From: Trichomonas vaginalis G3
Taxonomy: Eukaryota; Parabasalia; Trichomonadida; Trichomonadidae
Length of the DNA: 64,000 nucleotides
NCBI RefSeq assembly: GCF_026262505.1
Contig: NC_067208.1
Span: 5,341,962 to 5,405,961, forward strand
Direction: 5' to 3'
The notes below the pieces were generated by a model. It was given only the letters and a program-made list of their open reading frames with translations, searched no databases and was not told where the DNA came from. Both the position numbers and the translations under genes were made by a program. Of the stretch, positions 3,941 to 64,000 are shown piece by piece (position 1 is the first letter of the stretch; each line of letters opens with the position of its first letter).

Positions 3941-3987
3941 GACTTTCGCTCGATGTCTGATGCAATATCAGACATCGAGCGAAAGTC
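3941..3987. repeat. Perfect 21-bp inverted repeat (hairpin)
   Basis: Arms 3941-3961 and 3967-3987 are exact reverse complements, separated by 5 nt. The arm contains GACTTTCGCTCGATG. Degenerate copies of the arm (TCGAGCGAAA or its complement) recur near 4087, 4170 and 4197. Confidence 0.9.
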
Positions 3988-4224: not shown

Positions 4225-4418
4225 CCTGCTCATTGTTGAGCAGGAGCTGCGTAATGTGTTCGAGTAGAGTGAGGCTCTTCTAAGATCTTCCTTGTGATTG
4301 GAAGAAATTAGAAGAGTCTCACTCTACTATTTTGTAATTGTATGCCCTGGCCTTTGAGTGACCAGGGCTGCGTAATGAATTCGAGTAGGATTGTACAATA
4401 GCTCGGCAAACGCCGAGC
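4225..4418. repeat. Cluster of four further hairpins
   Basis: Stems are at 4225-4232/4237-4244 (8 bp), 4264-4291/4300-4327 (28 nt, 25 paired), 4344-4350/4362-4368 (7 bp) and 4401-4407/4412-4418 (GCTCGGC/GCCGAGC). The short direct repeat GCTGCGTAATG lies after the first and third stems. The last stem and the sequence after it recur at 47752-47788. Confidence 0.8.
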
Positions 4419-14233: not shown

Positions 14234-15534
14234 GGGTGTCCAAAGGTGCGTTTAGCACAGCGCTCTATATGAGACTATTAAAGGAGATATATGCTGATTA
14301 TAAATATATAATAAAAAATATGAATATATGTATATGATGAGTATGTTGTATTTTGGCGCCATGCCGGGATATAAAATGAATTTTGAGACAAGAGGCGGTT
14401 TCGCGGGAAATTTTGGCGGGATTTTTTTCATTTTTTTAATGAATCATAAAGAAAACATCCTCGCTCTTGCAAAAAAATGCAAAGACTGTAAAAAAATCTA
14501 CGAGACATTGGTAAAAATGCTTCGGTATGGATGCTCCTAGCTATTCCACTGTAACGTATCATGTTAGGATGTATCACTTCATGAACAAAAAGGCGCCCAT
14601 CATAAAAATTGACAAAAAATCGCCGGATCAAAGAAAAATCAAAGCAATTCTTCAAGCGCTAGATGAAGACCCAAGAGCATCACTCAGAAGGATAGAGGAG
14701 ATGACAAAGATACCACGTACAACAGTCAGTTATTATCTGCACAATTATTTGAACTACAAACTAGCGTATACACGTTGGGTTCCGCACAACCTTAATTCAG
14801 TTCAAAAAAAATCTAGAGTCCAATCTTCGAAAGAGCTCCTCTCTATATTGGGTGCGTATCAATCCAAGAAGTTTCGCTTTTTAGTAACAGGGGACGAGTC
14901 TTGGTTTCAATATGCAACAGAAGCCAAAATCATGTGGATCCCGAAGGATGAAAATCCGCAAACATTCCCGAAGAAAAAAATTGACACACCAATGATGATG
15001 TTGTCGGTTTTTTGGGGCGTGAATGGCATCATCGCAATTGATATTCTTCAAAAACCTAATACGATGAATGCTCAGTATCTAATTGACAATGTTCTTACTC
15101 AAATTATCAATTCTGATGAGTTTGAGAAATCCAAACAACAAAAACAAAAGTTTGCAATTCATTTTGATAATTCAAGAGTTCACAAAAGTCATAAGGTAAT
15201 GAATTACTTGGTGGAAAACAATGTCAAAGTTGTTCCAAACCCAATTTATTCACCTGATATTGCACCCTCTGACTTTTATTTATTCGGCACGCTAAAAAAG
15301 AGAGCTGAAGGACGCGAATTCGCGAGTCCAGATGATCTTGAAAATTTTGTAAGAGAGCAATTTGAGCAATTTTCTCATGATGATTTAAAGCGTGTCTTTC
15401 AAGCCTGGATCGATCGCTGCGAACGCGTGATTGAATCCAATGGTGATTATATTTAAATAAACTTTATATATATGTAACTTGTTTATTTCTATTCGCAGTA
15501 TTCAGGTTTGTGCTAAACACACCTTTGGACACCC
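14234..15534 (+). mobile_element. Mariner element, Tvmar1-like, 1301 bp
   Basis: The termini are inverted: left GGGTGTCCAAAGGTGCG, right end the complement with one difference in that stretch, continuing for about 28 nt. TA duplications flank the element at 14232-14233 and 15535-15536. The size and the DD34D transposase match the Tvmar1 family of Trichomonas vaginalis. It sits inside the surface-protein gene. Confidence 0.93.
14439..15456 (+). pseudogene. Mariner transposase with one frameshift
   Basis: The N-terminal DNA-binding part starts at ATG 14439 (MNHKENILALAKKCKDC). It runs out of frame near 14520-14540, where the main frame opens at 14527. The catalytic domain carries Asp in TGDESW, Asp in IHFDNSR and a third Asp in APSDFYLF, with 34 residues between the last two (DD34D, mariner type). 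The total span is one base longer than a multiple of three, so a single inserted base probably disabled the gene. The stop is in TAAA context. Confidence 0.85.
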
Positions 15535-27384: not shown

Positions 27385-27850
27385 GTCCTGTCGGATGGAA
27401 GGACTTTTCCTGTCGGAAGGAAGGACTTTTCCTGTCGGAAAGAAAAACTTTTCCTGTCGGAAAGAAAAACTTTTCCTGTCGGAAAGAAAAACTTTTCCTG
27501 TCGGAAAGAAAAATTTTTCCTGTCGGAAAGAAAAATTTTTCCTGAAGGTCGGCCAAAAAGTTCTCAATTTTCGAAAATTTGAATGGTTTACGGACGGACA
27601 ACTGGAAAAATTTTTCCTGTTGGAAGGAAAATTTTTTCCTGTCGGAAGGAAAATTTTTTCCTGTTGGAAGGAAAATTTTTTCCTGTTGGAAGGAAGAGTT
27701 CTTCCTGTTGGAAGGAAAATTTTTTCCTGTTGGAAGGAAGAGTTCTTCCTGTTGGAAGGAAGAGTTCTTCCTGTCGGAAGGAAGGACTCGGAATGCCAGA
27801 AGGAAGGACTCGGAATGCCAGAAGGAAGGACTCGGAATGCCAGAAGGATT
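27385..27850. repeat. 22-bp tandem repeat array, open in all frames
   Basis: About 16 units of the type TTTTCCTGTCGGAAAGAAAA, plus three related units with GAATGCCAGAAGGAAGGACT, are in tandem. A non-repeat interruption lies at 27545-27605. Each unit contains the small inverted repeat TTCC-TGTC-GGAA. Since 22 is not a multiple of 3 and the unit lacks stops, long ORFs appear in several frames on both strands. I regard these as artefacts of the repeat. A related array begins near 63780 in copy 2. Confidence 0.9.
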
Positions 27851-45495: not shown

Positions 45496-46273
45496 GAGGT
45501 AGGGCAACGATAGGTCAAAAAGGCTTCTCTGATAGATTTCCTTGCCTTTTGGATATGCTATAATATATAGCCTAGCATGATAGGATATGATGTCAAAAGT
45601 TAGAACATAACTTAGGATCTTGAGAAAAATGAAAAACAAAAATTACATAAAAAAAGAAAAATTTTATCTAATTTGTTTTTTGGACTGAATAAGTAATTTT
45701 ATTGAATTTCAATACGACACATAGATTTTATTATTAGTATTAAATATAATGGTTTACTATTAACAAGGAACCTAAACTAATGAAAATTTGATTTCAAATA
45801 TTGTATATGATTATCATAGATTACCAAAATATATTGCTATTTATGAGGATATAATATTGATTATTAGTAAATCGTATAAATTTAATAAATATGCCATGAA
45901 TATTGAATGAATTTCTTGATTCATAGGGGTAAAACGCGCTTTTATATGATTTAGACAGAGAATTTATGAGATGTAAATAACACAATAAAGGTTTATATTG
46001 AATATTTTCTAAAAATAAATCGAAATTATAAAAAACAATACATTTATTCATTGAAACTGTTGCATGCTAAGATCAGTCATAATGTAAACCTCTCAATTTT
46101 ATTGTCGTGGGAAGTATCTCAATTCCTTCAAAAAAATTGAAAAACTATTTAATTTTAAAAATATAATACTTTTAATTAGTTAATTAATTGGAGATATTTA
46201 AAAAAATCACTTTTGATAATACTTTTGAGAACTTTAATTCAAAAAATATATTCAAAAATATCCAGGATATCAA

Positions 46274-46586
46274 GAGGGAATTGTTCCTTATGAGGTATAT
46301 AGTTATGATGTATACCTCATAAGGAACAATTCCCTCCTTAAAACGAGAAAACTTGTTCGAAATTGTTTATCATTTCGAACAAGTTTTCTCGTTTTTAATA
46401 AGAAACTAAAGGCTATGAGGCATTGATTATATATTAGTGCCTCACAGCCTTTAGTTTCTAATAGATAGCTGGGAAACTTTCTCCAAATGATAAGTTATTC
46501 AGAGAAAGTTTCCCAGCTATCAAGAGGGAATTGTTCCTTATGAGGTATATAGTTATGATGTATACCTCATAAGGAACAATTTCCTC
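46274..46586. repeat. Array of five long hairpins
   Basis: Stems are: 46274-46299/46311-46336 (26 bp, perfect), 46340-46363/46372-46395 (24 bp, perfect), 46401-46422/46438-46459 (22 nt, one mismatch), 46465-46483/46502-46520 (19 bp) and 46524-46549/46561-46586 (second copy of the first, one mismatch). Loops are 8-18 nt. Units follow each other with almost no spacer. The first and fifth are exactly 250 bp apart and share flanking sequence. Confidence 0.95.
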
Positions 46587-47267
46587 CTTAAAATCGTAGA
46601 CATTTTTATACTTATTAATCAACCATTCAAAATCATATTCCTCTGAAAAGTAATTTTATTAAAAATTTAGAATTTTAATAAATATAGAGTTTGAATTTCA
46701 TACAATACCTATATATTTTCAATAATGGAATTTGAAAACCATTCTCAAAAGTTCTCAGAAAACCTTTTTTTCATTAATTTTAAGAAATCTGAGTATTAAA
46801 TTAAGTGATAAATTCGTTTGACACTACTTTAATTTTTAAATTCAAAAAATTATATGTGCTTCTTAAAATGACTCAAAAAATTTTATTATAAAATAATATA
46901 TAATATTAAAAATCCCACAACATTTTTTACTTTACATAATCGTACTTCCTCGATGATTAATTTCCACTCAATTTCTATCGTTGACCGAACTTAGCATGCA
47001 ACAAAACTACTTGGACAAATATGAAACAAGCATTCAGGCAATACTTTTGAGACTTCAACGCATCTGATAATTTTTATATAACTTCACCTCCTATGCTTAG
47101 AGTGGAGGTATTGAGATCGTATAAGTATAGATGAGCTCACATTCAGATATGATGTGTGAACTTCTGTTTTCACTGCAATTTTGAATCAGAATAAACTCAA
47201 AACAAGAATAAAATGATATACTCACTCTCTAAATGTGTTCGAGATTTAAAGTTGTATGAATAAAACG

Positions 47268-47788
47268 ATTCATCTTTCGAAGCCTCCCATTTAATGAGAG
47301 ACTTCGAAAGATGAATGTATTCATGTAGATGAAATACTATATATGACCATGTGTGATACTAAAGATATCAAAATGTTCATTTTTAAGTGCAATAGAAGGG
47401 TTATCTCTCGTAAAATCTCAATTTAAGGAAGATTTAGAAAGAACTCCTTTCCTGAGTAGATAGTGTGTGGTTTCTGTCTTTTGGTTGATCAGGAACTATG
47501 AAATTAAGTCGGACAGAAAGAAGTTCTTTTCAAAACAGACTCCAAATGAGTTGTTCGAAAAGAACTTCCTTCTGTATATGGATAATTGTAGTTACCGCAC
47601 TGAAGTATGTGATTGTGATGATGGAGTTCTCGATAAATCTAAAATCGGATTAAGATTAATTGAAAACTCAAGTAATTCTTTGAAATCTTGTGTTGTCTGG
47701 CACTATAATAACCAAAGAATGAGAATATTATGTTGAATGATGAGTACGTGTGCTCGGCATTCGCCGAGCGAATTGAGTTTAACGTACT
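47268..47788. repeat. Three further hairpins
   Basis: Stems are at 47268-47282/47302-47316 (15 bp, ATTCATCTTTCGAAG), 47514-47531/47557-47574 (18 nt, 17 paired) and 47752-47758/47763-47769 (GCTCGGC/GCCGAGC), the last enclosed by AGTACGT/ACGTACT at 47743-47749 and 47782-47788. Confidence 0.85.
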
Positions 47789-51428: not shown

Positions 51429-54400
51429 ATGCCACGTAAGCTACGTAAGAATATACGTAAGAGGAAGAGAGCATTGAAACATCCAATAGTAAAACTGACA
51501 CCACAACAACAGTTGCAACAACAAATTATGAATGACCCCACTATGTTGCAACAAATGTCAAGCAACCCTATGCTTTTAAACCGAGTTATAGGTGCACAGA
51601 GTGGAGGTTTAAGAGCGGCACTTTTAGCGAAAATGGCAGGCTATGGTGGAGCTGCAGACGGAACAGCTTATAACCCTCAAAGTCAAATGAATTTGAGTTC
51701 ACTCAAAAATCAAATAACAGATGTCAAAAAGTCAAACATAGACATACAGAAACAAATAAGTGAAAACGAAAAGAAACTAGAATATGACAGACACACAAAG
51801 AAACTCAATGAGTTAAACGTAGAGAAAAAGAAGAAAGAAGAACAACTGAAAGAACTAAGTACAGAGGAATATGCGAAAAAAGTGTCAGAAAAAGCAGCAG
51901 AAGTAGCAAAAATGGAACAAGATGTTATAAATTTGAAAAACCATACTACTCAATATAAAGTACTGAAAGATGAAGAAATAAAACAAAAAGCCCTGAAGAC
52001 ATATATGGATAGCGATGAGTATAAAAAAGAAGTTGAAGCAAATGTAAAGGCAGAAAAACTTTTACAGTTGCAAAACCAAACCGTACAGTATGAAAACTTA
52101 GCACAAGAAAGTAAAAATAACGACGCAGCCATGCAAAAGGCAATGAAAAGCGCAGAATATATAAAAGCTAATAATGACTGGTTAGATGCCCAAGCCAACG
52201 CTAAAGCAGCCCAACTTATAGGGTCAATAAGGACAAAAATACAAGCGGATGAAGACAGTTCAAATGAAGCTTTAAAATGCTGACTTTAAGAACGCCTTCG
52301 AAGCTCTTCATAGTAAGGTGAAACTAGTGAACGACTTCTCATCTGGAAAGAAACTGAAGTCTGAAGGTTTCGACAAAGAGTTAAGAGAAGTAGCACAAAA
52401 TATGACGAAAATAACAGATGCAGCAACGAGACAGGCAGTTCAAAGTGCCTATGACGCCGTTAGAGCAACTGTTGTGGAAAGTCAAGAAAAAGAGTTACAA
52501 CAGACCAAAACAGACCTAGTAAATGCTTTCTTAAGAACGAAAAGTCAGGTAGGACATTATGCTGCAGATGGAACATATGTGCCAGCTGGTGGAACTTATA
52601 TACCACCAAACCCTCCAAGAGAAGCACCTGCACCAGGACTACCTAAAACATTTACATCGTCACATGGACACAGACACAGGCATGCACCACAACCAACAAC
52701 AAAACAACACTGCACACAACCAACAGTTCAAAATCCAGCACCAACAACCAACAGTTCAAAACACTGCACCACAACCAACAGTTCAAAACACTGCACACAA
52801 CAACCACAAACAGAGCAAGGACATAAAAGAAGTAGAGAACAAGGAAACCAAGAATTCTTAAAAATGCTTAAGGAAATTATGGTTACCCAGATACTCTTGA
52901 CTTTAGTGACAGATATAAAGAAGCTATTAGAAAGTTCAAGGAAGGAAATACTGACCCGAACCTATTTAGCTTTATGGTTCAGCACCAAATGGGATATAAT
53001 TTCAAACCTGGAAAATACAAGCTCGCTAAGGGATATGATTTAATAGCATATCATCCAAATGACATGGATGAATTTACTCCGAGATATTTGGTGTCAGAGT
53101 AAATGATAATTCAACTATCTTCATGAAACGCGTAAAAAATAGAGACGGAACGAAAGAAGAAAGGTTATGAATGCGGATGGCTTAATAGGGAACTTGTTAA
53201 AAACGGTCTCGGAATATATGAAATGCCAGCAGATGAGGTACAAGAAACTCCACAGGAAGAAGTTCAGATACAACCAGACATGGAAGAAATAGTTCAGCAA
53301 CAACAGCTAGAAGAGCCTGAAGGAAACGAACAAGTCCTCCTTTGGAAACTAACTTCACAGAACTAGATGAAGATTTGGAACAGCCGAAAAATCTTGACCC
53401 TCAACAAGTGTATGCGGAGAATATGGAATCTTTCCAAGAGTCTAAGAAAAATTCGGCTGACATAGTAGAAGAATATCGAAAAATGTTCGCCGACATACAA
53501 AAGACTCCAACATCAGATGAAAATATTCCAGCATAGAATGGAAGTACTGAAAGATAATGTACACAAATACAACAATCCTTTTTACTTACGAGCATATAAC
53601 GTTCAATCTTTGGATGAACTCGGTGAAAATAAAAGGTTAAATTTCAACAAAACATATAGAAATGAAACATTGTTTAAAGTTCATTCAGAACCTAGCCAAT
53701 ATGGAAACAAACCTACTTTTGTTTCTGCAGACGATGGAACTACAATGAGATGGGGTCATAAAGCTAATCCGGATAGGTGGTTCATAAACTTACAACCACA
53801 ATTCCAAGAAGTTGTAGACGCAATGGAAGTGAATGGTGAACCAGATGTAGCTGGTATTTTCAGCGCGGCTTTAATGCCATTGAAAGATATGAAAGATGCA
53901 GATATTTTGGACCAGTATGAAATGAACATGGCTGATGGAAATATAACACCTGACGTTCTAGAACATTTATCTCAAAAGAACTACACAGAACCATAGAGAT
54001 GGTATATTTGGTGAAGAGTTTAGAAAGAAAAAGTTAGGAGAGAGAAGGAAGAGAACCTATTTGTACATGACCTTGCAAACGAAAGTTACAAAATGTCATA
54101 AACTTAACTTTGCAGACAATGAAGAGAAGGGATGAATATTTAAGAAAACTCAAATGGACAGTACCAAATGAAATGTTAGTATTGAAAAACATGTTCCTTG
54201 ACAAAATAAAACCAACTACAGAAATAAACGACGCAAGACTGAAAGATTGGGTAAAAGCTTTCCCATTCACAAAAGATATGTTGGTAACATGGAAAGAAAA
54301 CCAGAATGGCTACAAAAACATATATTTGGAAACGAGCTTATTCCATATGGACAGCACTGTTTGAAGAGCTTGAACCGGAAACTCAGGAAAGAGTCATGCA

Positions 54401-54639
54401 AACAATACGCGAAGACTCAAATACAAACTATGACAAATCTTTCTAGGATATAGGTTACCTGAGATGGGCGACCAGAGCCCAAAGGCAAAAAGGACATGGG
54501 AAATTTTACAACATACTAGGATGAACATAGGCAAAGATGCAACAACTTGAAGCAGAGGGCAAGTTACCAAAAGCGACACCAAAGAAGAAGAGAGAACAAA
54601 GTAAAGCTTGGTCCGAGTGGGTTCTATTATGATATATAA
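51429..54639 (+). pseudogene. Broken copy of the large coiled-coil protein
   Basis: This is colinear with 17520-20819. The first 284 codons are nearly identical, then a 2-base loss near 52276 (GCTTTAAAATGC versus GCTTTAACAAATGC) ends the frame. Further frameshifts fall near 52870, 53100, 53170, 53340, 53530, 53980, 54110, 54280 and 54440. The Ser-rich stretch before the C-terminus is deleted. The final KLG.SGFYYDI is retained. Confidence 0.85.
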
Positions 54640-54671
54640 ATCCAACTATTCTATATTTTTACCCATATGAA

Positions 54672-56275
54672 ATGTACGCCGCTCAGAATATAACGCCAAC
54701 AGTTTTGGATGCCATGAACGGAAATGTTTCCGAATGGTATAACGAATGCGACAATGCCATTAGAAGGTCAGAAATAGTTCCTGGAACTTACGAATATACA
54801 ACTGCTGTTTCTTATGGAAACGTAGGTGAGTTTGGAGAAGGTTCTTCAACAACAGTAGATATTGCTTGCGACAGGTTTCATATTATTTCTATTGACAACT
54901 CATTCTTATACGTGGAACAAGACATTGAAATAAAACCTTCTGCCAAGTTGTCTGACAAGAAAGGTTGCAATGGAATTTTCTATGTCGGATACCAATATGC
55001 TCCAGAAGTTTTCATGGGATATAAGATATATTCTAACTCTGACTTAGTTCAAACAGTAACATGGGCAAACTATGAATGGTTCGCTTTGAGAAACTCAGTA
55101 CAACCACAAGCTAGAGAACAAACAGACCAGTATGCAAATATTGAGAAAATAAGAAGACTTGACCCTAACGTTCCAGGAGTTTATGTTAACCTTTCTGGTT
55201 CAGATGGAACTGCTGCCACTAAAGTAAAACTGAAACTTAGAGTTCCTTTGTCATCTTTCCTCATCTTCAGGTTTTTAAGATACTTGCCAAACTGGGCAGG
55301 AAAAATTTCTATTGAACTTACTCCAAGCAAAAATAACTTAGTCATTGCACCAACACAAGACCCATTCAGCATTACTGTAGCTGGAACTGGTGGAGCCAAG
55401 TTCTGTGACTTTTGCAAAGACAAAGTTGACTTAGACTTTGGTTTCTCAAACTTCAACAATGAAGTAAACTATTATTTCAATGCTGCTGGAACTGCTTGGG
55501 ACCCAGTTAAGTTCACATGCGAAAAATTTGAATGCAAGAGAATAGAAAGCAGACTTGCAGTCTATATGTTGGACCCAGATATTTCAAATGCTTTAGCTGC
55601 CAAATATATTGCAGTTCCACTTATGTTCCCTATACACCAAATATCTGTCAAAGACTTTGCAGGTGAAGTTGGAAACCAAAGTGCTGACCCAGGTGCAAGA
55701 ACAGATATTGCTTTAACAACTGCAATGAAACATGCAGATACTATGTTTGTACTGTTCAGACGAACTATAAATGACTATTCTTGTTTCTACAACCCCGGTA
55801 TTAAATATCATATAAACATAGATGGCAAATATTATCCAAGAGAAGAATATTCTACAGTTGAGGATATGAGGTCATACAACTTGACATTAGATGCTATGAA
55901 CTTTAACAACAACTTCACAACAACCATTAACCCTGAAATGCAAAGTTCTATTATGCCATATGTGAAAGTATGGACTCATACAGGAGGTCAAAAAACTCAA
56001 TATACAAATGGAGACCGTTCAAACTTTTGGCTTGGCATTCCATTTGCTGACTCAGAAGACTTTATGGGTGGTATTTCAACTGTTGGTACTGTCAAATACA
56101 ATATACTGGTGACAGAGACGGTCCAGATGAACTGAGAGCAAAGAAGTTTACAAAACCAATAGCACTTTTCACGGAAGATGCTCTTTTGAAGATTCGTTCG
56201 ATGAAACCTGCTGGGGCTCCTCAGATTGGCATAACGACAGCTTCCATCGAGCAGATTTTGGCAGCAGGTCAGTAA
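54672..56275 (+). pseudogene. Probable major capsid gene, one late frameshift
   Basis: This is almost identical to 20852-22456 for 470 codons. A deleted base near 56088 (ACTGTCAAATAC versus ACAGTTCAAATAC) truncates the product at 487 residues, losing about 50 conserved C-terminal residues that continue in another frame to TAA 56275. The only clear difference in the body is a short loop (near residues 177-182, SGSDGTAATK versus SGQTAAAVTK). Confidence 0.8.
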
Positions 56276-56301
56276 GTTGTTCTTGAACTGACTTCTCTCC
56301 G

Positions 56302-56583
56302 TCAAATATTGACAACGCCAGTTTTGACATAATATTGAATAAACTTACCTTTAGAAATATCTGTAAGTTTTGTTGTTATATTTTTGTCTGCTTCAAGAAC
56401 TTTCACCATTTCAGTTATACCAACTTTCTTTGCTTTATGAAAATATTTTGGTTCAGCAAAGATTGCTATTCTATAACATTTACCATTGTTTGTATAAAGA
56501 ACTATTCTGTCAATGTATTTGTATTGTTTGTGTGTGTAAACTTTGTTCTGCTTCAATTCGAAGAGATACTCGAATACGTCCAT
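56302..56583 (-). CDS. Shortened copy of the 22350-22769 protein
   Basis: ATG 56583. The first ~85 residues match the copy-1 protein, with KFIDR changed to KYIDR. A small deletion then ends the frame at residue 93. The antisense overlap with the capsid gene is therefore lost, which suggests the overlapping tail is dispensable or recently gained. Confidence 0.6.
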   Translation of the reverse strand: MDVFEYLFELKQNKVYTHKQYKYIDRIVLYTNNGKCYRIAIFAEPKYFHKAKKVGITEMVKVLEADKNITTKLTDISKGKFIQYYVKTGVVNI

Positions 56584-56601
56584 CTTTTTATTCTAAGTAA
56601 A

Positions 56602-57138
56602 ATGTCATTTCCGAAAAATAGAAGCGTAAGTGTTTCAAAAGGTTTAATGGCGGTGGCAGATGTGAAGTTAAATTCACCAACTCAAACAAACAGTCAAAGT
56701 GTTGTTGTCAATGTCAAAGACAGAGATGTTGAAGTGGGGAAACCATACGAAGACGAAGATGGTATAACAATTGTTCCTGTAAAAGAACAACCAACATATC
56801 CTGAAGTTAGCAGAGACTTAAGTTCTGTTGCAGATATTCGAAACGACTACCAACAACTGAAAGACAAACTTCAAACTCAGGAGAAGATTTGTCAAGCTTT
56901 AAGTATAATGTTAAACTTGGTCGAACACAACCCTGTAAAAGTGAACTCATATGTCATTGCACCTCATGAAGTTTTGAAAGAACTATTGAAACTTTTGACA
57001 GAGGCAGACGATATAAACATCAAAGAAATAGAACCCGACATTAGTTGCTGTGGTGTTTCATATAATGTCATTGACAAGATATACGTTATGAAAGGAGGTG
57101 AAACGTTGAACTTAAAGTATAGTTTCCCAGACGTATAA
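56602..57138 (+). CDS. Copy of the 22788-23333 protein (178 aa)
   Basis: ATG 56602 follows TTCTAAGTAAA as in copy 1. The protein is intact except for the last residues, which a base deletion near 57135 replaces with an immediate stop. Differences are few and conservative (KEQPTYPE versus KEPTYPE). Confidence 0.75.
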   Translation: MSFPKNRSVSVSKGLMAVADVKLNSPTQTNSQSVVVNVKDRDVEVGKPYEDEDGITIVPVKEQPTYPEVSRDLSSVADIRNDYQQLKDKLQTQEKICQALSIMLNLVEHNPVKVNSYVIAPHEVLKELLKLLTEADDINIKEIEPDISCCGVSYNVIDKIYVMKGGETLNLKYSFPDV

Positions 57139-57188
57139 AAATATTTGACGACCACAACATTTCATTAAAATTTATTTGCTAAGTAAAA

Positions 57189-57419
57189 ATGTCAAAACTT
57201 CTTGAAAGATGTTTGAAGAAAAATAATATAGACTTTATTTCATGTAAAGGACTTTACACACTTTTGAACGATATGAAAGACCCTGTTTTGTTTGTTCGTG
57301 TAGACAAAGGAAAGTTCTATGTCTTTACAAAATATTTGAACTTCTTAGACAGAGAACTTCAAGAAACGCCATGTGAAAGTTTAGATGAAGTTCTTCTCCA
57401 CTTTCAGAAAAACTTTTAA
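57189..57419 (+). CDS. Small Maverick protein (76 aa), absent from copy 1
   Basis: ATG 57189 follows GCTAAGTAAAA, the leader that in copy 1 directly precedes the penton-like gene. The peptide is alpha/beta and begins MSKLLERCLKKNNIDFISCK. The clean frame in an otherwise decayed neighbourhood supports a real gene. Function is unknown. Confidence 0.6.
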   Translation: MSKLLERCLKKNNIDFISCKGLYTLLNDMKDPVLFVRVDKGKFYVFTKYLNFLDRELQETPCESLDEVLLHFQKNF

Positions 57420-57429
57420 ATATATATAA

Positions 57430-58225
57430 ATGGCAGAAGAATAATGGTTTATACTATTACGACTAAAAACCCTGAGTCATATAATTCTATAACAACAAAC
57501 TTACAAAGTCCTCAAGGACGATATTGTAAACTAACCTTAAACACAATGACGACTAAAGCCTGTTTTGCTCTTTTGACACCAGAAGACTTTATTGTTGTGA
57601 ATGGTAAAAAATACTCCTTTGAAGATACTTACTCAGATATACCACCAACAGGTTTTGTTGACTTATTTAATACTTTAAGACGGGTGTAACATGTGCTGCA
57701 ACTAGAGCAGGTTTCATTATGTTTGGATGTCCGACTGAGTTTACTATAAACGATATGAGCTATAATACAAAACTTATTTCTGGTTTTTACTACCAACAGT
57801 TTCCTATAACAGGAAAAGGTGTCATACAAGGAATGTCTATTCCATTGACATTAAGCACACCAATCTTATATATTGTTTCAAACTTAGGTTCAAAGTGTTA
57901 TTCGAATGTCGACAGAAACTATTATGACCAAAAGATACTTATGCGTATAAACAATACTTTCTCTGCTGGTTTGCCTATTGTTCATTCGAATGCAGAATTT
58001 TCAACCTTAGTGAACTCAAACACTTTGGCAAGTATAACGTTGACATTAGTTGACGCAAACTTTGTTCCTGTAAAACTTTTATGTCCTATGTATTTGTCAA
58101 TGACGGCAGAAAGTTTCGAATTGGAAGATGCAACTGGTGAAAGTATTGTATTACAAGAACAACTTCAACAACAAATAGCTCAAGAACAACAAATGCAACA
58201 AATGCAACAACAAAGTCAAGAATAA
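57430..58225 (+). pseudogene. Penton-like minor capsid gene, two frameshifts
   Basis: This corresponds to 23374-24184. A deletion just after the ATG (GAAGAATAATGG versus GAAGACATAGTGG) and another near 57681 (AAGACGGGTG versus AAGGACGGATG) break it. The region that is frameshifted in copy 1 is in frame here. Confidence 0.75.
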
Positions 58226-58253
58226 AAAAAATATTTTTTTATTTTTTATAAAA

Positions 58254-59473
58254 ATGTACAGAATAGATGTTTCAGATTTTTATGACTTCCAAGCATTCAG
58301 AAATATGTGTCCATTTCGAGACTATAACAAAGCAGTCGAGAATTTGAAACGTTTAGTCATTTATGTCGACTCTGCCCCAGAATGTTATGTTATGAAAGAA
58401 TGGGATGTGTCTTTAACAAACCAAGAGCAACAATAGTTCAGAACAAGAATGTAGACAGAAACTTAAGAAAATAAAAGTTGTACAAGTTGCATGAAGATGT
58501 TAGATGCTTGGGATATCTTATTGTCAAAGTTAGAAGATTTTTCAGTTCGGTATAAAGTTCTATACACCTTCTCCAAACTTCTATTCTATCTTCACTGGAT
58601 ATAAATACGAACAAGTAGAATGGAAAGAAAATATTATAGAAGCTTGGTTAGACCATGTCAAAGAAATTATATGCAATGGAAACGAAAGAGTTTATGAGTA
58701 TATCTTATGTTGGTTTGCAAACATCTTACAACATCCAAGTGCTAAAAATGAAACTGCTCTCATTATAATTGGAAAACAAGGAACTGGTAAGAACACATTC
58801 TTTACAGATATTTTGTGCAAACTGTTAGAAGGTTATTCGAACCCGAATATGACAAACTTAGAAAACATCTGGCAAGTTTAACTCCTCAATAGAGAATATG
58901 AAACTTATAGTTTGCAATGAACTTCAAAGTATAGATACAACAAAAGTTTTGAACTCAGATGCTTTGAAGAGTCTTATAACAGACAAAGTTGGAGTTGTTG
59001 AAAGAAAGTATAAAGACCAAAGAGTTTGTGAAAATGTTGCAAACTTCATTATGGTTTCAAACAATACTGTTCCGATGAAGTTAGAAAGTTCTGACAGAAG
59101 ATATGTAGTTGTCAGAACGTCAGATTCTCATATGCAAGATACAGAATATTTTGACGACTTAGCAGAAACTTTGACATCTGACTTTTACAACCACTTGTTC
59201 TCATATTTTATGACATTAGATATTTCAAAGTTCAATCCAAGACAAATTCCACATACCGAAGAGAGACAAACATTGTTAGAAGCAAACAAGAGTGTATATG
59301 AACTGTTCATAGATGAAACTGACTTTGAGTGTTTAGATGAAAGGTCATTGTACGATTCGTATAAACAATATTGTCAAGAATATGGTTATATGGCAGCTTC
59401 TAAACGAACATTCTTGGCAAATGTCAAAAGTCTTTTAGATGTTCAGAATGGTGTATATACAAAATTTTTCTGA
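58254..59473 (+). pseudogene. Broken SF3 helicase gene
   Basis: This corresponds to 24217-25452. Frameshifts lie near 58410, 58490, 58550 and 58875. Walker A (GKQGTGKN) survives in one frame and motif C in the 58898-59473 frame. The C-terminal end differs by a small deletion (TKFF versus TKKNFSE). Confidence 0.8.
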
Positions 59474-63790: not shown

Positions 63791-64000
63791 TATTTTTTCT
63801 GTCGGAAGAAAAAACTTTTTCTGTCGGAGAAAAAATTTTTCTGTCGGAAGGGAAAAACTTTTTCTGAAAGTTGACCAAAAAGTTTCTCAATTTTCGAAAA
63901 TTCTGAATGGGTTTCAACGACGGACAACTGGAAGAGTTCTTCCTGTTCGTCGGGAAAATTTTTTTCCTTTGTCCGGAAATTTTTTTCCTTTGTACGGAAA
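63780..64000. repeat. 22-bp repeat array of copy 2 (degenerate, runs off the window)
   Basis: Units of the CTGTCGGAAG-AAAAA-CTTTTT type start near 63797 and are interrupted by a GTTGACCAAAAAGTTTCTC stretch, as in copy 1 at 27550. They lie upstream of the leftward Pro-rich gene in both copies. Confidence 0.8.

Follow-up and report, generated by a model that had tools for sequence, protein, structure and literature searches.

Why does a short stretch of the Trichomonas vaginalis G3 genome carry five near-perfect hairpins packed end to end, and what keeps their arms complementary? The hairpins occupy positions 46274-46586 of the window, by which we mean the entire 64,000-nucleotide stretch of contig NC_067208.1 that was analysed. 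An initial annotation made from the letters alone had read them as a candidate small-RNA precursor cluster, with the interior of a mobile element or extrusion-prone DNA as fallbacks. The hairpins themselves were confirmed by direct reading, by a hairpin scan against shuffled sequence and by DNA folding. H1 (46274-46336; stem 26/26 bp, loop 11 nt), H3 (46401-46459; 22/24 bp paired, loop 11 nt) and H5 (46524-46586; 25/26 bp, loop 11 nt) belong to one type, B, and alternate with H2 (46340-46395; stem 24/24 bp, loop 8 nt) and H4 (46464-46521; stem 20/20 bp, loop 18 nt), which belong to type A, each type having its own core. As had been noticed at the outset, two stems 250 bp apart are near-identical, H5 repeating H1. 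The remaining hairpins, first described as unrelated, fall into these two alternating types, and the array over its full length is 76-78% complementary to itself.

Nine hairpins in the window score 16 or more, five of them being H1-H5, and none reached this score in five dinucleotide shuffles. The DNA fold of the array has an energy of -119.9 kcal/mol, as compared with -24.8 ± 4.2 kcal/mol for 100 shuffles (z = -22), and together the scan and the folding energy rule out a chance origin. A search of the window against Rfam gave no family at the gathering threshold, and no known RNA family or tRNA was found in the window. Two further strong hairpins (scores 21 and 20) lie far from the array, at 3941-3987 and 4263-4328.

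Real as the hairpins are, the array does not stand alone. Comparison of genomic copies identifies the natural unit as a 946-bp DNA transposon at 46058-47003, a member of a class of about 948 bp, which holds the array in its interior. The element has TGT..ACA ends and 22-bp terminal inverted repeats (TIRs), the left at 46058-46079 on the forward strand (starting TGTTGCATGCTAAG) and the right at 46982-47003 on the reverse strand, which are 91% complementary to each other. A 4-bp target-site duplication (TSD), AAAC, flanks it at 46054-46057 and 47004-47007, and alignment of copies delimits a left subterminal region (46080-46273) and a right one (46587-46981). When the flanks are joined with a single AAAC, the reconstructed empty site is found uninterrupted and 100% identical at 40/40 places scored (169 candidates), which indicates that the window element jumped into another repeat. 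This host repeat, present in the window at 45960-46057 and 47004-47700 and 100% identical at 40 of the 40 places scored among 169 candidates, contains at one of its places (L097) a 329-aa frame that is open at its end. It also has two imperfect hairpins outside the transposon, at 47268-47316 and 47513-47575 (arms of 23 and 22 nt).

The terminal repeat, with up to two mismatches allowed, occurs at 325 places on the forward and 332 on the reverse strand of the T. vaginalis G3 genome, and at least 40 copies of a 337-bp segment spanning the array are 99-100% identical to it (40 scored of 440 candidates). Loci with both ends carry identical 4-bp flanks in 39 of 41 cases, the exceptions being L008 and L037, and the flank sequence differs between insertions; the 41 loci amount to 38 distinct insertions, L004 being the same as L023 and L043-L045 being one. 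Equal 4-bp flanks were also found at 23 of 24 and 17 of 18 loci in further samples that share five and six loci, respectively, with the set of 41. Among the first 100 terminal-repeat places listed, 43 pairs lie within 8 kb and 14 places are unpaired. By size, 25 pairs measure 930-965 bp, 6 measure 1880-2020 bp, 4 about 700 bp and 3 measure 258 bp (one insertion), with 5 of other lengths. The 699-bp class corresponds to the 948-bp class minus about 250 bp, and the 2.0-kb class has 15 or so hairpins between ends common to the 948-bp class; in the two 2.0-kb copies checked (L030 and L033), no ORF that starts with ATG reaches 60 aa.

Five fetched loci share the left 299-300 bp of the element at 98.7-99.7% identity and encode a 349-aa transposase, whole or in fragments. 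This protein scores above the Pfam cut-off for rva_4 and rve_3 and just below it for rve (32.5 against 32.6); its best NCBIfam model is transpos_IS481 (99 bits, E 3.3e-28, below the curated cut-off of 224), as compared with 56.6 bits for the IS3 model. With 116 of 1028 candidates scored, the transposase has many genome copies, several of which are free of stops, and its relatives are 62, about 48-49, 40 and 31% identical to it. For the IS481EU (Banshee) elements of parabasalids, the available passages of one study give TNT..AYA termini, TIRs mostly below 50 bp, TSDs of about 4, 15 or 25 bp and, in autonomous members, a transposase as the sole gene (PMC10045372). The family described here has an IS481-type DDE transposase, TGT..ACA termini, a 22-bp TIR and a 4-bp TSD. 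As it shares its termini with coding elements that carry an IS481-type transposase, we assign it to IS481EU (Banshee) and are confident that the window element is a non-autonomous member, presumably moved in trans by the transposase of those coding elements. The inverted repeats, target duplications, empty site, hundreds of copies and coding parent thus favour the mobile-element interior that had been only a fallback reading.

The composite at L061 and the right part of L089 contain only transposase plus array, and the L089 element, on C5, spans about 2467 bp by coordinates. At L061, two elements (C3:5619169 and 5623868) are joined head to head, the first of them without its right end; the fusion is possibly the product of transposition or recombination. 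Elsewhere in the window, 14527-15456 holds a mariner-type transposase ORF of 309 aa (Transposase_1, DDE_3).

In at least two related families, coding members have such an array downstream of their transposase. L089 has 11 hairpins alternating B-A-B-A on the 3' side of a transposase frame without stops; they begin about 80 nt past its stop and finish some 420 bp short of the right end. The detector overlooked one of these hairpins, which was identified by direct reading. The hairpin unit is about 62 bp and the four-hairpin repeat 250 bp, and repeat number shifts in 250-bp steps, both between the 699- and 948-bp classes and between L091 and L090. The genome search for other arrays that the initial annotation had called for found them in coding relatives, in the 2.0-kb class and in a second, nested repeat at L049 (3837-4793), 957 bp long with TIR-like ends TGTTATATACGAAAA and a 4-bp duplication. 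This repeat occurs at 99-100% identity at at least 40 places (40 scored of 733 candidates), with longer forms that have extra 250-bp steps; it has four hairpin sequences per 250 bp, other than those of the window array, and the longest frame observed in it is 106 aa from stop to stop. Hairpins of other sequence are also present at L003, beyond the transposase relative of 62% identity. No array was found within 1.5 kb downstream of the 31%-identity transposase (L093) or the 40%-identity transposase (L094) at the single locus fetched for each, the latter having one lone 19-bp hairpin. At G000:C1:19697027-19698293, downstream of a 53%-identical transposase, six H2 arms lie exactly 250 bp apart with no exact second arm alongside, a pattern that probably reflects an extended array of hybrid hairpins.

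The comparison of stems that had been proposed revealed strong covariation between hairpin units. The aligned units were picked by hand (8 type A of 38 distinct strings, 12 type B of 76) and, being related, are non-independent. The type A units align without internal gaps, with 98.4% of 190 cells paired, two-sided changes in 13 of 25 pairs and one-sided changes in none; in type B, 96.1% of 307 cells are paired and 22 of 28 pairs show two-sided changes. Because the hairpin detector demands pairing, the percentage of paired cells is partly built in, but the two-sided changes are not. For neither type did any of 500 shuffles match the covariation score, and shifting the partner by one column reduced pairing to 55% or less. 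Amid this variation, the type A core AAACTT and the loop-closing AAT/ATT do not vary among the left arms of aligned units, one unit having a C-G pair of the invariant run broken on the right side, while the type B core GAGG and its surroundings are nearly invariant. RNA structures usually evolve via G.U intermediates. Counted from the alignment tables, G.U pairs account for 0 of 187 paired cells in type A and 8 of 295 in type B, and their scarcity between units points to pairing at the level of DNA.

Within resident copies, however, pairing is not kept up, so that the early suggestion that such close pairing points to recent origin or selection is borne out by the covariation between units but not by the fate of individual copies. 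In the 948-bp sample (24 copies chosen by their ends together with the window copy, L073 being set aside), singletons occur in stems at 0.0031 per site per copy, in the two flanks at 0.0024 and 0.0038 and in loops at 0.0028. Sixteen of the 18 stem singletons break pairing, two produce a wobble and none is compensated; among the nine variants common to several of these copies, six are G.T-type wobbles, showing that wobble intermediates do occur, two are unpaired and one mends a mismatch. L073 itself has eight stem singletons, seven in H2 (five paired, two wobble) and one, paired, in H3. For 18 copies of the 2.0-kb class, singleton rates are 0.0024 in stems, 0.0013 in loops and 0.0020 elsewhere. 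Their 31 stem singletons comprise 21 unpaired, 4 wobble and 6 paired; all six paired ones lie in a single hairpin of L067, an A5 variant also present in L061 and L089, and with L067 apart 0 of 25 are compensated. With 0/18 and 0/25 stem singletons compensated, no correction is visible in resident copies: the stems of individual copies decay like flanks, and pairing is not maintained there.

What does occur is exchange of hairpins between families. At L090-L092, the transposases upstream of the arrays show only 48-49% identity to that of the parent. Identity to the window and L089 arrays is nevertheless 92-94% over 306-319 bp for the arrays of L090 and L092, whose order is inverted, and 92% over 179-189 bp for that of L091. 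H2 of L091 is identical to the window H2 over 56 bp and is oriented as in the window family, whereas its neighbours in L091 are not. Mosaic copies are found at L073, L081 and L067: H2 of L073 is that of the other family (53 of 54 bp match L092, read by eye), and H1 of L081 is a hybrid with half from each family. Exchange could proceed in either direction, each unit being an inverted repeat. Loop flips, a signature of template switching, are rare and consist mainly of the inversion between families and of L091 H2.

The array is thus shown to be a transposon interior. Taken as a whole, the account that we regard as probable is that its pairing is kept, at the DNA level, in source lineages, that hairpins are traded between families, and that the array may serve as a docking region. 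Of its parts, DNA-level maintenance through source lineages seems likely to us, and a docking or structural role for the hairpins is put forward as a tentative proposal, somewhat short of an even chance. The conserved quantity would be pairing at the level of DNA. Source elements may keep or renew perfect palindromes through replacement by other hairpins, template switching from one arm to the other, on hairpins that are extruded or single-stranded, may perfect them, and selection on propagating elements would add to their upkeep, with resident copies decaying freely afterwards. The likeliest use would be as a folded or palindromic protein-docking region for the transposase or a host factor, for which the cores AAACTT (type A) and GAGG (type B) are the proposed docking marks. 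The evidence favours extrusion-prone DNA, the second of the fallback readings, with extrusion itself being predicted only. A wider reading, which we consider doubtful as a whole, is that IS481EU transposons of trichomonads carry a satellite-like, exchangeable cassette of two alternating DNA hairpin types. Its complementarity, more than its sequence, would be inherited; it would lengthen and shorten in 250-bp units, move between transposon families in either orientation by virtue of each unit being its own inverted repeat, and have a real role, in docking of transposase or a host factor or in sensing strand state, in a eukaryotic DDE transposon.

The hairpins might instead be functionless by-products of mutation, perfected by template switching, then amplified by unequal exchange and spread within transposons. 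Arm homogenisation and loop inversion are template-switching products according to the available passages of PMC8604942, and the few G.U pairs, the length steps of 250 bp, the inverted arrays, the hybrid hairpins and the flank-like decay of resident stems are all consistent with such an origin. Speaking against it, resident copies show no correction (0/18 with L073 apart, 0/25 with L067 apart), and mutation alone would not be expected to yield regular spacing, A/B alternation and invariant cores, or a like design built from different sequences in a further repeat. We judge this explanation unlikely, though with an appreciable chance of being right.

A purely double-stranded role, in which the palindromes would be dimer sites of a transposase-binding or regulatory array that tunes transposition and needs no extrusion, would account for the invariant or nearly invariant cores within variable stems and for an array that lies 3' of the transposase gene and is retained in non-autonomous copies. 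There is precedent in piggyBat, where, in the available passages, a subterminal site restricts activity and the transposase binds palindromes (PMC11707139), and AAGTT, part of the type A core, can be made out by eye in both TIRs, a weak match. A dimer site would, however, fix its sequence and not complementarity alone, yet 13/25 and 22/28 pairs change two-sidedly, and the arrays lie mid-element, hundreds of bp from the ends. On balance such sites appear rather improbable as the explanation.

The leading suggestion of the initial annotation was that the array is transcribed and its hairpin RNAs diced into products that silence the element or genes. Stems of 20-26 bp do resemble shRNAs, wobbles are frequent among the shared variants of the 948-bp copies (6/9), and T. 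vaginalis encodes a Dicer ortholog, miRNAs having been reported earlier, as passages of PMC7845603 relate. The small RNAs of T. vaginalis described in those passages are, however, 34 nt long with a 5' U and go with PIWI-clade Argonautes (PMC7845603). G.U pairs are moreover rare between units, and pairing is not maintained in single copies. Exact matches to the H2 arm occur at 665 genome places (330 forward, 335 reverse), and of the first 100 listed, 88 belong to 44 hairpin pairs. Another 11 either neighbour related IS481-type transposases or fall in the fetched array copy L038, which leaves C1:18399226 as the one place outside all of these. The 100 places listed of the 665 thus reveal no separate targets for this arm, and complementarity of the arms to the transposase gene is confined to matches of 7-9 nt among those listed. 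The small-RNA reading, deprived of support by the reported 34-nt PIWI-type RNAs, the few G.U pairs, the lack of upkeep and the lack of separate H2 targets, strikes us as very unlikely.

We count as refuted a non-autonomous Maverick (Polinton) with Maverick-derived termini and a replaced interior. At L050 and L052, the element's left end is indeed followed by an integrase and genes of a Maverick. That Maverick, however, encodes a separate integrase of its own (Pfam) and a long polymerase-like frame (named by eye) further on and starts at different points in the two loci, which places it nested in the element. In addition, L061 reads TIR-transposase-array-TIR with no Maverick, and the TSD is 4 bp as against about 6 bp for Polinton in passages of PMC10045372. 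The hairpins that appear as spacers between Maverick genes in L052 are an effect of this nesting. In the window itself, two partial regions (17520-40633 and 51429-59473) have several very similar proteins in common; the first encodes a Pox_A32-like packaging ATPase and an rve integrase, and from these two proteins and general knowledge we take both regions to be Maverick/Polinton-like. Arrays of a 21-22-bp tandem repeat of the TCCTGTCGGAAGGAAAAATTTT type are present at 27386-27848, inside the first such region, and at 63794-64000.

To return to an interior whose pairing would be kept in source lineages, the families that exchange arrays have transposases diverged to about half identity, and a single genome offers the means to test whether perfect DNA hairpins are kept by selection for the fold or only by palindrome-perfecting copying errors. 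In T. vaginalis G3, hundreds of shRNA-like loci are transposon interiors and as such a trap for miRNA prediction.

Among known systems, the closest is IS481EU/Banshee itself, which in the available passages shares with the window element its host T. vaginalis, TGT..ACA ends, a TIR below 50 bp, a 4-bp TSD, an IS481-like DDE transposase, non-autonomous derivatives and hundreds of copies, one named family, IS481EU-7_TV, having 376 copies with both ends (PMC10045372). It differs in that the hairpin array goes unmentioned in these passages, the main text containing no occurrence of 'hairpin', 'palindrom' or 'stem' (PMC10045372). A literature search that covered mostly titles and abstract openings, outside subscription papers and Repbase entries, returned no recognised description of the array. 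The superfamily of the element is therefore already published, while a covarying hairpin interior shared across families is new as far as these literature passages and searches show.

REP/BIME sequences go with a tyrosine transposase and leave no TSD, and Fold-back elements have long TIRs built of tandem repeats. An integrase-core transposase and a 4-bp TSD rule out REP/BIME mobilised by a tyrosine transposase, and a 22-bp TIR with internal repeats rules out a Fold-back element. Bacterial REP/BIME nevertheless resemble the array, in the available passages, as regularly alternating arrays of palindromic units linked to a transposase (PMC2817692); BIMEs go with REP-associated tyrosine transposases, whereas the window element is a eukaryotic DDE element with TIRs and TSDs. 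Fold-back/Galileo of Drosophila also resemble the window element in being, as far as the passages seen describe them, non-autonomous elements with TIRs and abundant inverted and tandem repeats (PMC4168063), but the TIRs of the window element are just 22 bp and its hairpins many, short and internal. Palindromic sites within a cut-and-paste transposon are also a feature of piggyBac/piggyBat, where passages report them to be bound by the transposase (PMC11707139); those palindromes are few and short, whereas the arrays described here contain between 5 and about 16 hairpins, their stems covarying and their binding putative. Finally, inverted repeats perfected by template switching in yeast offer, through arm homogenisation and spacer inversion, an explanation of perfect arms in the available passages (PMC8604942), but they are single, short and within genes, whereas the window array is alternating and transposon-borne.
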